DNA of 64,000 nt. Source: Gloeocapsopsis crepidinum LEGE 06123 (lineage in GTDB: Bacteria > Cyanobacteriota > Cyanobacteriia > Cyanobacteriales > Chroococcidiopsidaceae). The stretch's first letter is position 1. Each line of letters starts with the position of its first letter. A program made the translations under genes and the position numbers. The stretch is from NCBI RefSeq assembly GCF_015207655.1, contig NZ_JADEWN010000002.1, forward strand, positions 62,001 to 126,000, written 5' to 3'. Shown here one piece after another: positions 30,870-41,410 of the stretch. A model generated the notes under the pieces. It had not been told where the DNA came from. It did no database searches and saw only the letters and a list, made by a program, of their open reading frames with translations.

Positions 30870-31529
30870 ATGGCGGAAATATCTGCACAAGTCGTCAAAG
30901 AGCTACGCGAAAGAACCGGCGCTGGCATGATGGACTGCAAAAAAGCGCTGAAAGAAAACGACGGTGATATGGACAAAGCCATTGAATGGCTGCGACAAAA
31001 AGGTATCACCTCTGCTGACAAAAAAGCTGGGCGCGTAGCAGCAGAAGGACTCGTAGGTAGCTACATTCACACTGGCGGTAGAGTTGGTGTATTAGTAGAA
31101 GTCAACTGCGAGACAGACTTCGTGGCTCGTCGTGAAGAATTTCAAACGCTGGTGCGGAACATCGCCATGCAAGTCGCGGCTTGCCCGAATGTCGAGTATG
31201 TCAAAGTAGAAGATATCCCAGCCGATATCGCCCAAAAAGAAAAAGAAATCGAAATGGGGCGGGACGATCTGGCGAAAAAGCCAGACAATATCAAAGAAAA
31301 AATCGTTCAAGGTCGAATTGAAAAACGCTTGAAAGAAATGACTTTGATGGATCAACCCTACATTCGCGATCAAAATATTTCTGTGGAAGATTTAGTGAAA
31401 CAAGCGATCGCGCAATTAGGTGAAAATATCCAAGTGCGTCGCTTTGTCCGCTTTGTCTTAGGCGAAGGTATCGATAAGCAAGAAAGCAATTTCGCAGAAG
31501 AGGTCGCTGCGCAAATGGGCAGTAAGTAA
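30870..31529 (+). CDS. tsf: Elongation factor Ts
   Basis: A 219-residue guanine-nucleotide exchange factor for EF-Tu. Seen: [20 protein letters not shown], the core motif [14 protein letters not shown], and [17 protein letters not shown]. It is the short cyanobacterial form. It follows rpsB by 61 bases and is likely co-transcribed with it. Confidence 0.97.
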
Positions 31530-31587: not shown

Positions 31588-31640
31588 TGGAAAGTGCAGC
31601 GTGCCGGAGGCAACTATTTTGAGTTTTGAATTACAAAGAA
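31588..31640 (+). repeat. Partial composite repeat with GTGCCGGAGGCAA unit
   Basis: Contains GTGCCGGAGGCAACTATTTT followed by GAGTTTTGAATTAC. It shares the GCCGGAGGCAA unit with copies at 27374-27405 (reverse) and 59143-59165 but lacks the GTTAGCGTAGCGG core. Confidence 0.7.
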
Positions 31641-31687
31641 GTGTCTTAACTCATAATTCAACACTCATAACTTCCCCTCACTCCTCG

Positions 31688-31742
31688 ACGCCACTTGCTA
31701 CAACGGGGGACACCCCCGCAACGCAGTGGCTCCCCCTCACCC
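31688..31742 (+). repeat. Palindromic repeat, copy A
   Basis: Outer stem GCCACT/AGTGGC, inner stem CGGGGG/CCCCCG with ACA loop, then TCCCCCTCACCC. A second copy lies at 41299-41352 on the other strand and differs by paired changes in both stems. It sits just upstream of the gene at 31758. Confidence 0.8.
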
Positions 31743-31757: not shown

Positions 31758-32606
31758 ATGGCAACGATTGAACAAATTAAACGAGAGATTGCAGCTTTAG
31801 AAGAAGCGTGTCGCGTTCTTGCAGAAGAACTTTATGCGGCTTACACTAGTTATTTCATAGCCTTAGCGAAAGCTGTACGGCAACAAGCAATCTTAGCTAC
31901 TTATCACTTGTGTACACAGGGCTATCCAGAAGCGTTTTTGAGTTTATCTTTTAGCCAGCGACAGCAATTGCAGCAAGATGTACGTAGGGTAATACGGGAA
32001 GCAATTGATCAGTTATTGGCGATAACACAGGTTGAGGAAAAAGAAAACTTAGAACAAGAAATTAGAGAAGATATCAAACTGGAAGCTACAGAAGAGGCAT
32101 TATTAGAATCTGTTAGTCCTCCTACGACAAGTTTTAGCACTCTGGTGAGATTTCCAACAAATCCGATAGATCTGCTCAAGTGGCAGCAAAATATCGAGCA
32201 GGCGATCGCCTCGCAACTGAAAACGATTTCGCGTGAAATTAACTATCTACTTCAGCAAGCAAAGATTTTGCCAGAGAAACTCCCCTTTCCATTACTCGAT
32301 GCAGCATTAAACGCACCAGAACTTCCAGCTGAAGCGACTGCTGGACCGCCAAATTTATTAAACTTATTAGTAGAAGCAGAAAGCAATAGCAATCAAGAAG
32401 AATCCAGCGTCACTACGCTTGTTGCTATCTATCTACGGCTAGGCGAAATTGAGTTTGCTGATGCGACAATAAGAACTGAGCGCAACCACATTCGTCATCT
32501 AGAAACCCGAAGCCGCACTTTATTGAAAGAATATTACAAGAAACAGCGCGAGCAAGCCATTGCAGAAGCAGAAGCAGCGTGGCGTGCTAGCTGGTTTGAA
32601 GATTAG
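31758..32606 (+). CDS. Conserved hypothetical helical protein
   Basis: A protein of 282 residues starting ATIEQIKREIAALEEACRVL; the ATG at 31758 is chosen because the 21 codons upstream run through the palindromic repeat. It is rich in helices, with coiled-coil stretches at the N-terminus and at the C-terminus (EYYKKQREQAIAEAEAAWRA). No membrane helices, signal or catalytic motif are visible. It resembles proteins found next to recG or tsf in cyanobacteria, from memory. Function unknown. Confidence 0.8.
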   Translation: MATIEQIKREIAALEEACRVLAEELYAAYTSYFIALAKAVRQQAILATYHLCTQGYPEAFLSLSFSQRQQLQQDVRRVIREAIDQLLAITQVEEKENLEQEIREDIKLEATEEALLESVSPPTTSFSTLVRFPTNPIDLLKWQQNIEQAIASQLKTISREINYLLQQAKILPEKLPFPLLDAALNAPELPAEATAGPPNLLNLLVEAESNSNQEESSVTTLVAIYLRLGEIEFADATIRTERNHIRHLETRSRTLLKEYYKKQREQAIAEAEAAWRASWFED

Positions 32607-32746: not shown

Positions 32747-35242
32747 ATGACATCACTAGATTTAGGGCGATTGCAAAAAGCATTGGCAGTAGAAGCAGAA
32801 CGCGGCTTTGCTGATTTAATAGGTAAGCAATATCGCTTTAGTGAATTTCTCTGTCTTAGTTTTGGTAAACCTCCAGTAGCTCTGCCGTTAGACGAGCGTC
32901 AGCGGTGGCAAGAAATAGCAGCACAATTTGCCAAATATCCAGAATTGCCATTAGAAGAACGACAACACCTGGTAGCTGAAGCACGGAGATGCGTGTATCA
33001 TACACAACGATATCAGCGTGGGGACAATGTCACAAAGCAAAGTACAAAAGAGCGATCGCCCCACTCAACAAAAACGAAACTCCCGCCGACAACACCCTTA
33101 GTACAACCGCTACAGACAGAAGCCGCAATCCGTATTGCACCGTACCTAGAGCAACCCTTAAAAAGCTTACCCGAAGTAGGAGTGAGAAGAAGTGGTTACT
33201 TAGCAAAACTGGGGTTGTATACAGTACGCGACGTTCTATTTTATTATCCCCGCGACCACATTGATTATGCACGACAAGTCAATATCAAAGAATTGCAAGC
33301 AGGAGAGACAGTAACACTATTAGGAACAGTCAAGCGCTGTACTTGCTTTAATAGCCCGCGCAATCCTAAATTAACGATCCTGGAACTTGTCCTTAAAGAT
33401 AATACTGGTCAAATTCGGATTAATCGTTTTTTTGCAGGAGCGCGATACGGTCATCGTGGTTGGCAAGAACAGCAAAAACGTCGCTATCCTGTAGGTGCAG
33501 TTGTTGCTGCTTCTGGATTAGTCAAAGAAAGCAAATATGGTTTAACCTTAGAAGACCCCGAAATTGAAGTTTTGGCACATCCAGGAGATACGATTGATTC
33601 GCTGACAATCGGTCGAGTAGTACCAGTTTATGCTTTGACTGAGGGCGTAGGTGCAGATATGGTACGCAAAGCGGTTACGGCGGCTTTACCTGCGTGCGTA
33701 CATCTCAAAGACCCCTTGCCATTTCGCCTGCGCGACAAGTATGGTTTGATGGAACTAAAAGCGGCGATCGCTAATATTCACTTTCCCTCAGATAGCACTT
33801 CTTTGGAAGTTGCTCGACGTCGCCTTGTTTTCGATGAATTTTTCTATTTACAACTCGGTTTACTACAACGCCAACACAAAGCACGTCAAATTCAAAACGG
33901 TGCGATTTTAGCACGTACTGGAAAACTTATTCAAACATTTTACCAACTACTACCCTTTGAACTGACTAACGCTCAATCGCGAGTTGTTAACGATATCCTC
34001 GATGACTTACAAAAAACAGTACCGATGAATCGTTTGGTACAAGGAGATGTAGGTTCGGGAAAAACTGTTGTTGCTGTCATAGCAATCCTTGCAGCGATTC
34101 AATCAGGTTATCAAGCAGCGTTAATGGCTCCAACAGAAGTGTTAGCAGAACAACACTATCGCAAATTAGTTAGCTGGTTTAATCTGTTGCATTTACCCGT
34201 AGAACTGTTAACAGGTTCTACAAAAACTGCAAAACGCCGCCAAATTCATGCTCAACTAGAAACAGGTGAATTACCGCTATTGGTCGGTACTCATGCTTTG
34301 ATTCAAGAAAAAGTCAATTTTCAACGTTTAGGTTTAGTTGTGATTGACGAACAACATCGTTTTGGTGTAGGACAACGGGCACAGTTACAGCAAAAAGGCG
34401 AATCTCCGCACGTCTTGACAATGACAGCTACTCCCATTCCCCGTACGCTAGCGCTAACATTACATGGCGATTTAGATGTTAGTCAAATTGACGAACTACC
34501 ACCAGGAAGACAACAAATTCAGACAACAGTTCTATCAGCAAAAGAACGCAGTCACGCCTACGACTTAATTAACCGCGAAATTGCCCAAGGACGTCAAACT
34601 TATATCGTTTTACCTTTAGTAGAAGAATCAGAAAAGCTGGATGTCCGTGCTGCTGTCGAAGAACATCAACGACTCCAAGAAAGTATTTTTCCGCAATATC
34701 AAGTAGGCTTACTTCATGGTCGCATGAGTTCAGTTGATAAAGATACTGCTATTCATCAATTTCGTGACAATCAAACACAAATTTTAGTGTCAACAACCGT
34801 CATCGAAGTAGGAGTTGATGTACCCAATGCAACTGTGATGATGATTGAGAATGCTGAGCGTTTCGGTTTATCACAACTGCATCAATTACGCGGTCGTGTG
34901 GGTCGGGGTGCAGCGAAATCTTACTGTCTTTTGATGAGTAATTCTAAAGCAGAGACTGCACTATCGCGGTTAAAAGTCTTAGAACAATCGCAAGATGGCT
35001 TTTTCATTTCAGAGATGGATATGCGCTTTCGCGGTCCTGGAGAAGTCTTAGGGACAAGACAATCAGGATTACCAGACTTTACTTTAGCAAGTCTTGTAGA
35101 AGATCAAGAAGTTTTGGAATTAGCAAGAGCCGCCGCAGAAACAGTAATTGAACTTGATGCAACTTTAGAACGCTGGCGTTTGATGAAAGCTGAGTTGGAA
35201 TATCGCTATCAAAAATTAATGGGTGGTGCTATCTTGACGTAG
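32747..35242 (+). CDS. recG: ATP-dependent DNA helicase RecG
   Basis: An 831-residue helicase that remodels stalled replication forks. Order: a cyanobacterial N-terminal extension of about 140 residues; an OB-fold wedge domain (LLGTVKRCTCFNSPRNPKL); Walker A GDVGSGKTVVAV; APTEVLAEQHY; motif II DEQHRFG; TMTATPIPRTLAL; motif VI region HQLRGRVGRGAAKSYC; and the RecG tail FRGPGEVLGTRQSGLPDF. Full length. The N-terminal extension has a Ser/Thr/Pro-rich linker at about 85-115. Confidence 0.97.
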   Translation: MTSLDLGRLQKALAVEAERGFADLIGKQYRFSEFLCLSFGKPPVALPLDERQRWQEIAAQFAKYPELPLEERQHLVAEARRCVYHTQRYQRGDNVTKQSTKERSPHSTKTKLPPTTPLVQPLQTEAAIRIAPYLEQPLKSLPEVGVRRSGYLAKLGLYTVRDVLFYYPRDHIDYARQVNIKELQAGETVTLLGTVKRCTCFNSPRNPKLTILELVLKDNTGQIRINRFFAGARYGHRGWQEQQKRRYPVGAVVAASGLVKESKYGLTLEDPEIEVLAHPGDTIDSLTIGRVVPVYALTEGVGADMVRKAVTAALPACVHLKDPLPFRLRDKYGLMELKAAIANIHFPSDSTSLEVARRRLVFDEFFYLQLGLLQRQHKARQIQNGAILARTGKLIQTFYQLLPFELTNAQSRVVNDILDDLQKTVPMNRLVQGDVGSGKTVVAVIAILAAIQSGYQAALMAPTEVLAEQHYRKLVSWFNLLHLPVELLTGSTKTAKRRQIHAQLETGELPLLVGTHALIQEKVNFQRLGLVVIDEQHRFGVGQRAQLQQKGESPHVLTMTATPIPRTLALTLHGDLDVSQIDELPPGRQQIQTTVLSAKERSHAYDLINREIAQGRQTYIVLPLVEESEKLDVRAAVEEHQRLQESIFPQYQVGLLHGRMSSVDKDTAIHQFRDNQTQILVSTTVIEVGVDVPNATVMMIENAERFGLSQLHQLRGRVGRGAAKSYCLLMSNSKAETALSRLKVLEQSQDGFFISEMDMRFRGPGEVLGTRQSGLPDFTLASLVEDQEVLELARAAAETVIELDATLERWRLMKAELEYRYQKLMGGAILT

Positions 35243-35266: not shown

Positions 35267-35533
35267 GAGAATGCGAGTGGGAGTGAATTTGCTACTAAAT
35301 AAATAAACATCCACCTCCGTAGACTACGGGTAAGGCATGCCTCACTCCAAAATCTCATCTTAATGTACGAAAGTACACTTTGCTTGAATAGCCTTGACTT
35401 TAGTCTAAGGGCATCTGTGATTTATGCAGAATGTCTATTGAGTTGGTAAAACAGATAGAATTTTAACAGAAGTATATAGTTAAACATTGCTACGGGTTGG
35501 CTATATCTACAACTCAGTAAAAATTTATTGGCA

Positions 35534-35968: not shown

Positions 35969-36041
35969 AACGGGGGAAGCAGAGGAGATCGAGAGTTATG
36001 ACTAGAAGAAGTAGGAATGTTAAGTTATGAGAATTCTTGTC

Positions 36042-36085
36042 ATTCAAAACGTGCTAACGCACCGCTACGCTAACAAAACTTAAAA
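36042..36085 (+). repeat. Composite interspersed repeat, copy 3
   Basis: ATTCAAAACGTGCTAACGCA then CCGCTACGCTAACAAAACTT, same orientation as copy 2, between the secreted protein and argB. Confidence 0.85.
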
Positions 36086-36118
36086 TTCAAAACTCTTTCA
36101 CTCACTCCTCGCTCCTAT

Positions 36119-40696: not shown

Positions 40697-41410
40697 CTAA
40701 TCACGTCCCTGCCATCGTTGAATAGGAATACAATCAATATCAAGCTGATCCAAAGCACGGGCAACAACAAAATCAACTAAATCTTCAATTGTTTGCGGTT
40801 TGTGGTACCAAGCCGGAATTGCAGGAACAATTCTTGCACCAGCTTCAGCAAGCATTGTTAAGTTTCTTAAGTGAATTAAACTAAAAGGAGTTTCACGCGG
40901 TACAAGAACCAATTTGCGTCCTTCTTTTAGTTGCACGTCTGATGCCCGCTCAAGCAAGTCTGAACTCAGCCCAGCCGCAAGCTTAGCTACAGTACTCATA
41001 CTACAGGGAAGGACAACCATACCGAGAGTGCGGTAGGAGCCGCTGGCAATATTAGCTCCCACATCGCCCCAGTGGTGACAGCAGAGTTTTCCTTGTTCCA
41101 CACCAACACCAGCTTGCTGCCGCCAGAACTGCTCTTGCTGCAAAGGTTCTACTGGCATCCGGATATTTTGCTCAGCTTGCCAAACCATGTACGTTGATTT
41201 AGAAGCAACGAGTTCGACTGCGTATTCAGCAGCTAAGAGAAACTTGAGCGCACGAACAGCATAAATTAACCCTGATGCTCCAGAAACTCCTAAGATCAGG
41301 GGTGAGGGGGAGCCAGTGTCGTGCGGAGGTGTCCTCCGTTGAGACGACTGGCGTTGAGTGGTGAGTGGTGAGTGATTAGACACAAGATTATTGGGTTTAC
41401 TCCTCGTCAA
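40697..41410 (-). CDS. ubiX: Flavin prenyltransferase UbiX
   Basis: A protein of up to 237 residues that prenylates FMN to make the UbiD cofactor, needed for quinone-type decarboxylations. Seen: LILGVSGASGLIYAVRALKFL, PCSMSTVAKLAAGLSSDLLERASDV, LVPRETPFSLIHLRNL, and AGARIVPAIPAWYHKP. The N-terminal 38 residues before LILGVSG are unusual: they are encoded by the second copy of the palindromic repeat plus filler. The only starts are TTG at 41410, which overlaps the upstream RNB-family gene by 14 bases, and GTG at 41383; neither is well placed for a ribosome-binding site. The true start is unresolved. Confidence 0.92.
   Translation of the reverse strand: MTRSKPNNLVSNHSPLTTQRQSSQRRTPPHDTGSPSPLILGVSGASGLIYAVRALKFLLAAEYAVELVASKSTYMVWQAEQNIRMPVEPLQQEQFWRQQAGVGVEQGKLCCHHWGDVGANIASGSYRTLGMVVLPCSMSTVAKLAAGLSSDLLERASDVQLKEGRKLVLVPRETPFSLIHLRNLTMLAEAGARIVPAIPAWYHKPQTIEDLVDFVVARALDQLDIDCIPIQRWQGRD
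41299..41352 (-). repeat. Palindromic repeat, copy B, within 5' end of ubiX
   Basis: On the minus strand: GCCAGT ... ACTGGC outer stem, CGGAGG/CCTCCG inner stem with ACA loop, then TCCCCCTCACCCC. Compared with copy A (31688-31742), both stems keep pairing despite base changes. Confidence 0.8.

Follow-up and report, generated by a model that had tools for sequence, protein, structure and literature searches.

Within the 64,000-nucleotide stretch of the Gloeocapsopsis crepidinum LEGE 06123 genome analyzed here (the window; contig NZ_JADEWN010000002.1, positions 62,001 to 126,000), two short palindromes, A and B, differ by base changes that are matched in the opposite arm, which raises the question of what these sequences are and whether the hairpin itself is selected or needed for their copying. 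The stems are as the initial annotation gave them, i.e. GCCACT/AGTGGC and CGGGGG/CCCCCG in A, and GCCAGT/ACTGGC and CGGAGG/CCTCCG in B, and the claimed pairing of the changes was borne out. A covariance model, made from 15 copies found by BLAST, matched 46 nt at both places, namely 31688-31733 on the plus strand (A) and 41309-41354 on the minus strand (B), and a scan of the window with it found these two copies and no others. The earlier position of B (41299-41352, other strand) was a few bases off. Since the final base of the 46-nt match belongs to the target sequence, the unit is 45 nt long:

31688..31732, plus strand: copy A, 45-nt element of class 1 (ACGCCACTTGCTACAACGGGGGACACCCCCGCAACGCAGTGGCTC); model match 77.5 bits, E 3.1e-17
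41310..41354, minus strand: copy B, 45-nt element resembling class 2 (GTC/GAC middle stem), within ubiX in its 5' coding part; scores 69.5 bits with the model, E 3.2e-15

When folded as 46-nt stretches, offset by 2 and 4 bases from A and B, both sequences were more stable than dinucleotide shuffles: A had a z of -3.6, equaled by 1 shuffle in 200, and B a z of -4.0, equaled by 0 in 200. Searching the genome by BLAST with A plus its surroundings gave at least 39 matches (40 scored out of 123 candidates), at least 18 of them on the hairpin and at least 21 on an adjoining AT-rich repeat. With the covariance model, at least 51 matches were found in the genome at E<=1 and at least 37 at E<=0.001, both counts being lower bounds from 150 scored candidates. 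What had been described as a two-copy repeat is consequently present in at least 37 copies, and A and B are members of one non-autonomous mobile element of 45 nt. The reading of A and B as a mobile element whose hairpin is selected is one to which we give a probability of about 90%.

For the structure, 145 copies were collected from 14 genomes, representing the best-scoring part of 398 matches; nine of 154 rows were excluded, namely eight fragments covering model positions 14-34 only and one short match in L024. The unit is 45 nt (46 alignment columns) in 127 of the 145, and the 96 distinct copies among these 127 made up the covariation set. The element opens with an unpaired 5'-AC and closes with TC-3'; in between come, in this order, a stem of 5 bp, the bulged T, a stem of 3-4 bp, an internal loop of 4x3 (WCAA/CAM), a stem of 6 bp and a loop of 3 nt. 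Standard pairs fill 1357 of the 1440 cells, a share raised by the use of a structure-aware model in picking the collection, and 11 of the 15 pairs show both-sided change (159 cells). The same holds for the 15 copies found by BLAST, i.e. from sequence alone, with 19 both-sided cells against 6.7 +/- 2.0 in shuffled alignments (0 of 500 as high). The 51 distinct rows of an alignment fitted to the covariance model contain 92 such cells against 26.7 +/- 4.5 (0 of 500 as high), and structures slid along this alignment reached 24 at most. Mutual information, which makes no use of a structure, ranked column pairs 7-39, 20-28, 10-37, 11-36 and 12-35 highest, all of them predicted base pairs. Paired substitutions are thus found across the copies, as the difference between A and B had suggested.

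The unpaired parts are far more uniform. The bulge at position 8 is T in 95 of the 96 copies, with position 9 pairing and covarying with 38 (TA in 82, CG in 10 of the 96), and the asymmetric internal loop is kept, with C32 and A33 in all 96 copies, A15 in 94 and A16 in 95. The stems occur in 16 outer and 28 middle combinations, and since they are this diverse while the bases of bulge and loop hardly vary, recognition by shape is favored and a simple arm-to-arm correction disfavored. Two main classes are distinguished by their internal loop, ACAA...CAA and TCAA...CAC, and a third inner core (AAGTCGG...) is found in L083, in the host of L075, and in L262. Wobble pairs give no significant indication of which strand folds (22 G-T against 13 A-C, p 0.18). 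The loops are enlarged in L084 and L124, giving units of 86 and 78 nt with apparently a further palindrome inside, and matches of 78-79 nt recur in the genome G012. In L094 and L124, both hosts of nested copies, the left and right half-stems are mismatched, as if the halves came from different copies or were altered on insertion. The notion that the outer palindrome is an independent repeat that receives a smaller core was rejected after a pattern search of the genome: the outer arms, at 3-33 nt spacing, gave 19 matches against one for a reversed-pattern control, and these were 15 full elements, one decayed element and three unrelated sequences.

In search of empty sites, 14 sites were compared with relatives. 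Six of them gave a clean empty site, namely A against G013, a copy nested in the B of G015 against this genome (G000), L031 against G015, L042 against G014, L041 against G015, and one G011 copy against G012; taking out the 45 nt ACG...GGCTC (...GGCTT in L041) and joining the 12 bases on each side left 1, 2, 0, 1, 2 and 1 mismatches, respectively, in the 24 joined bases. For the copy nested in B, the mismatches fall on the two bases immediately left of the junction, and for the G011 copy on the single base there. Neither duplication nor loss of target sequence was found at these six sites, and the insertions are exactly 45 nt, although the absence of the element from a relative could also be a precise loss instead of an insertion. 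A is missing in all five relatives compared (G015, G014, G013, G012 and G011), its surroundings being more diverged in G015, G014, G012 and G011 than in G013. B is common to this genome and G015, in the latter holding the nested 45-nt copy, and is absent from G014, G012, G011 and G013, with the adjoining heptamers gone too. L032 is shared with G015, a second G011 copy is missing from G012 and G013 along with its surroundings, and L038, L043 and L045 were too diverged for comparison. At the sites of L034 and L044 another type of the element is present in G015 and G014. These copies (L265 in G015, L262 in G014), when set against this genome's own L034 and L044, mark either hot spots or the replacement of one copy by another. 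The added copies, the covariation and the empty sites together support the original proposal that the hairpin is selected or needed for copying, and mobility with the structure kept at unrelated sites favors a role in copying rather than in a host function.

The target is likewise recognizable. Among 100 distinct sites, the first base after the element is C in 83, the second C or T in 87 and the third C in 87, and most insertions are at N^CYC, with heptamer arrays or older copies as frequent targets. Tandem repetition of 6-8 nt (score >=0.6) surrounds 51 of 126 copies, compared with 1.0% of control positions, and the tandem repeats are already there in the empty sites of L031, L042 and L041. 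Class 2 copies serve as targets themselves, at ^CTCAACGG. Along the chromosome of G012, the orientation of the copies (68 places after near neighbors were merged, from 72 on contig C1) showed no two-arc, i.e. replichore, pattern (P 0.45) and a weak clustering (runs P 0.018).

Copy A is intergenic, located between tsf and the gene at 31758..32606:

31674..31687, plus strand: left target flank of A (CCCCTCACTCCTCG), found in the unfilled relative G013
31733..31742, plus strand: right target flank of A (CCCCTCACCC), the element lying 5' of CCC; found in the unfilled relative G013
30870..31529, plus strand: tsf (EF-Ts), upstream of A; TIGR00116
31758..32606, plus strand: gene downstream of A, no NCBIfam match; ATG context conserved in six aligned genomes
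32747-35242: recG, following the gene at 31758..32606

The stretch 31617-31686, to the left of A, contains an inverted pair, TTTTGAGTTTTGAATTA / TAATTCAACACTCATAA, and its right part matches at least 21 other places in the genome, constituting a separate AT-rich repeat. Other dispersed repeat families are seen in the intergenic stretches 35269-35440 and 36015-36100, which match relatives in many places, at about 70-98%.

Copy B is situated in coding sequence:

41355..41376, minus strand: CACTCAC heptamer array upstream of B; absent, as is B, from four relatives in the alignment
40697..41410, minus strand: ubiX reading frame (flavin prenyltransferase), with B near the N terminus; matched from residue 38 by NF004685 and TIGR00421 (NCBIfam)

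The ubiX start is likely the GTG at 41381-41383, judging from a context common to six aligned genomes, and in the alignment with G013, B and the heptamers add 22 codons. The UbiX of G015 is 15 residues longer than that of this genome, and the PriA of this genome is 15 residues longer than that of G015. Of the 145 copies, 40 are found in stretches that stay open for 30 codons or more on each side and at least 150 in all. Twenty of these 40 were searched against Pfam, and 17 of the 20 ORFs have a domain (L152, L154 and L150 do not); in 12, domains extend across the insert or lie to either side of it, and in the remaining five the domain lies to one side or merely touches it. The 12 are:

L060 and L062: CobN/Mg-chelatase
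L041: PriA
L043: pyridine-nucleotide oxidoreductase/AIRS protein
L069: DUF3536
L044: protein with UvrB-interaction, CarD/TRCF and DEAD domains
L081: DinB/FGE-sulfatase
L106: polyketide synthase
L126: CbiG
L155: MutL (upstream domain slightly below the curated cut-off)
L134: hydantoinase
L138: histidine kinase (upstream domain slightly below the curated cut-off)

From its combination of domains we take the L044 host for Mfd. Seven of the 12 copies are in sense and five in antisense orientation. As 45 nt equals 15 codons, copies sit in frame within conserved genes (mfd-like, priA, cobN-type and mutL, and B in ubiX). The mean number of open frames per copy is 4.91 against 4.06 +/- 0.10 in shuffles, a statistic that ignores the kinship of the copies and is therefore not taken as a sign that stop codons are avoided. 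In plasmids, annotated genes lie over the copies in three of ten records, i.e. H1 (DUF3987), H3 (polyketide synthase) and H7 (hypothetical).

The covariance model found copies at E<=0.001 in 14 out of the 19 family genomes. The counts, all lower bounds, are at least 79 in G012, 45 in G015, 37 in this genome, 32 in G011, 24 in G016 and 20 in G013. None were found at this threshold in G002-G006, members of a single genus whose sixth member, G001, has seven. In a sample of the phylum, surveyed with stricter filters than the family, 34 of 386 genomes matched at E<=1e-6, all labeled as the same or own order. An exact long pattern of the element was found at 19 loci in genome contigs, 18 of them in records named Nostoc, Calothrix, Hassallia, Mojavia, Amazonocrinis, Atlanticothrix or Nostocales, and one in a Xenococcaceae MAG. 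Among the ten cyanobacterial plasmid records with the element are NC_019746.1 (Gloeocapsa sp. PCC 7428; 204466 bases), with a copy at 1322, and NC_019699.1 (Chroococcidiopsis thermalis PCC 7203; 370830 bases), with one at 214286. No phage record matched at E<=0.01. Two IMG/VR contigs match the element; one of these, IMGVR_UViG_3300036045_000523 (66 kb; L234-L237), is filed as viral, has 11 whole or partial matches, and may be a piece of a cyanobacterial plasmid or chromosome.

How, then, are such copies made? Insertion without duplication, a hairpin with a bulged T and a target preference fit a single-stranded DNA hairpin moved in trans. A trans-acting enzyme would recognize the imperfect hairpin by its shape, probably as a single strand of DNA laid bare by replication, and would join it 5' of the CYC motif with no staggered cuts in the target. 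In genes, copies would survive because they amount to 15 codons, are open in most frames and may be tolerated in linkers. A 45-nt mobile hairpin that is recognized in trans by its shape, probably as single-stranded DNA, and joined 5' of CYC is the explanation we lean towards, with reservations; the single-stranded DNA step, taken by itself, is put forward tentatively. No mobilizing enzyme was found, and neither of the candidates considered, i.e. reverse transcriptases (RTs) and Y1 transposases, was supported.

The enzyme could be a Y1/HUH transposase of the IS200/IS605 or RAYT type, moving the element in trans either now or before its own loss. IS608 and its relatives have an imperfect hairpin with a bulged T and produce no target duplication, just as is seen here, and Y1 matches occur in 17 of the 19 family genomes (67 matches). 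Copy number, however, does not track Y1: G011, with at least 32 copies, has a single Y1 match of 35 residues with a stop, and G002, with two good Y1 matches, has zero copies. Furthermore, the 21 of the 67 Y1 loci that were scanned had no strong copy of the element, and the three weak matches were L207 (24.4 bits), L028 (21.7 bits) and L209 (12.4 bits). The conserved target bases would also be on the wrong side for IS200/IS605, if the top strand is the one that moves. Taken together, this makes a Y1 origin unlikely. This genome has two Y1 matches of equal score, L027 and L028; the weak element match of L028 is about 1.1 kb from the Y1 gene, and the L027 gene is flanked by GC-rich palindromes that by eye are unlike the element.

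Alternatively, the element may have moved via an RNA copy, the hairpin RNA being inserted and reverse-transcribed by the RT of a group II intron or a similar RT. The covariation resembles that of RNA, target duplication is absent, and G-T pairs are somewhat, though not significantly, above A-C. The RVT_1 profile, which could miss a very divergent RT, nevertheless had no match at E<=0.001 in G000, G011, G012, G013 and G016, five copy-rich genomes including the one with the highest count. RTs are, conversely, present in G002, G003, G004 and G006, which have no copies (G005 has neither). The DNA of G015 is 95-96% identical to that of this genome (over two long matches in the A-B region) but lacks A, L031 and L041, so these insertions look recent, and they are found in an RVT_1-negative genome. 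The mixed orientation of the in-gene copies, seven sense and five antisense, also speaks against the RNA route. We accordingly regard it as improbable, though a divergent or since-lost RT may have served.

The paired changes themselves might have arisen as a replication artifact, without any selection on the hairpin. Correction of quasi-palindrome arms by template switching is known and yields matched changes in both arms, as observed between A and B. Yet such correction would be expected to remove the bulge and the asymmetric loop as well, and these are almost invariant (T8 in 95/96, C32/A33 in 96/96, A15 in 94 and A16 in 95), and no copies drifting towards perfect palindromes were noticed among the 145, although the structure-aware choice of copies could hide these; we find this explanation very improbable. 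Hardly credible, lastly, is a regulatory RNA or terminator of the host that recombination has spread, for while the hairpin is stable, would form in RNA too and occurs in no phage record, no Rfam 15 family reached its gathering score in the window, no sub-threshold match covered the A hairpin, A and B lack a T run, copies sit in coding sequence in both orientations, and presence differs between congeners.

Among known systems, the closest kind by description is the small dispersed repeats (SDR1-8) of Nostoc and its relatives. Elhai et al. in 2008 reportedly described SDRs as tiny dispersed cyanobacterial repeats of 21-27 nt with compensatory changes in a common hairpin, situated in heptamer arrays, with nested copies, and confined to one cyanobacterial subgroup; they are said to have proposed an RNA route, in which hairpin RNA is inserted and reverse-transcribed. 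The element analyzed here shares the compensatory mutations in the hairpin, the heptamer arrays, the nested insertion and the restriction to a coherent subgroup (its own or the same order, as found in the phylum sample). It differs in its inserted unit of 45 nt, although the SDR length could describe the core, and the RT result does not favor the RNA route. According to PMC4390886, SDR5 inserts within HIP1, in contrast to the insertion mostly at N^CYC seen here; the SDRs of Elhai et al. 2008 are also treated in PMC3116915. For the in-frame habit, the nearest counterpart by description is the Rickettsia palindromic elements (RPEs), which are likewise palindromic and in frame in unrelated conserved protein genes. 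RPEs are given as about 150 bp in PMC10969869, whereas the present element is 45 nt, is intergenic as well, and resides in cyanobacteria.

REPs and REPINs are similar in being short, imperfect dispersed palindromes without a gene of their own. PMC3733652 describes REPs as having an unpaired tag, GTAG or CGTC, at one of their ends; here, the unpaired ends are AC and TC and there is no such tag. The inserted unit is also a single hairpin instead of the inverted doublet of a REPIN, and, unlike in REP/REPIN-RAYT systems, a Y1 gene is not tracked (all Y1 matches taken together). MITEs, too, are short non-autonomous mobile palindromes, of 70-300 bp according to the same source (PMC3733652), compared with which the element is shorter and lacks a target site duplication. 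Among the matches listed, our literature search showed no report of in-frame insertion of cyanobacterial repeats, a weak negative given that the primary SDR paper was outside its coverage, and among the matches listed for searches with sequence strings of the element, the titles were unrelated to cyanobacterial repeats. The element might be, all in all, a selfish hairpin of 45 nt, among the smallest mobile elements with clean empty sites, moved by an enzyme that is neither an RT nor a Y1 transposase, and with a codon-multiple length that makes it a portable 15-residue peptide in essential genes; as a whole, we hold this picture to be doubtful.

Clean empty sites are now available for a mobile hairpin of just 45 nt, and its possible routes of movement are narrowed by several copy-rich genomes without a detectable reverse transcriptase. 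The in-frame palindromes in conserved genes, of the type found in Rickettsia, are extended to cyanobacteria, where their hosts include proteins of repair and replication, i.e. an Mfd-like protein, PriA and MutL. Copies occur in Gloeocapsa sp. PCC 7428 and Chroococcidiopsis thermalis PCC 7203, so that ideas on how the element is moved, and by what, can be tested in named strains.
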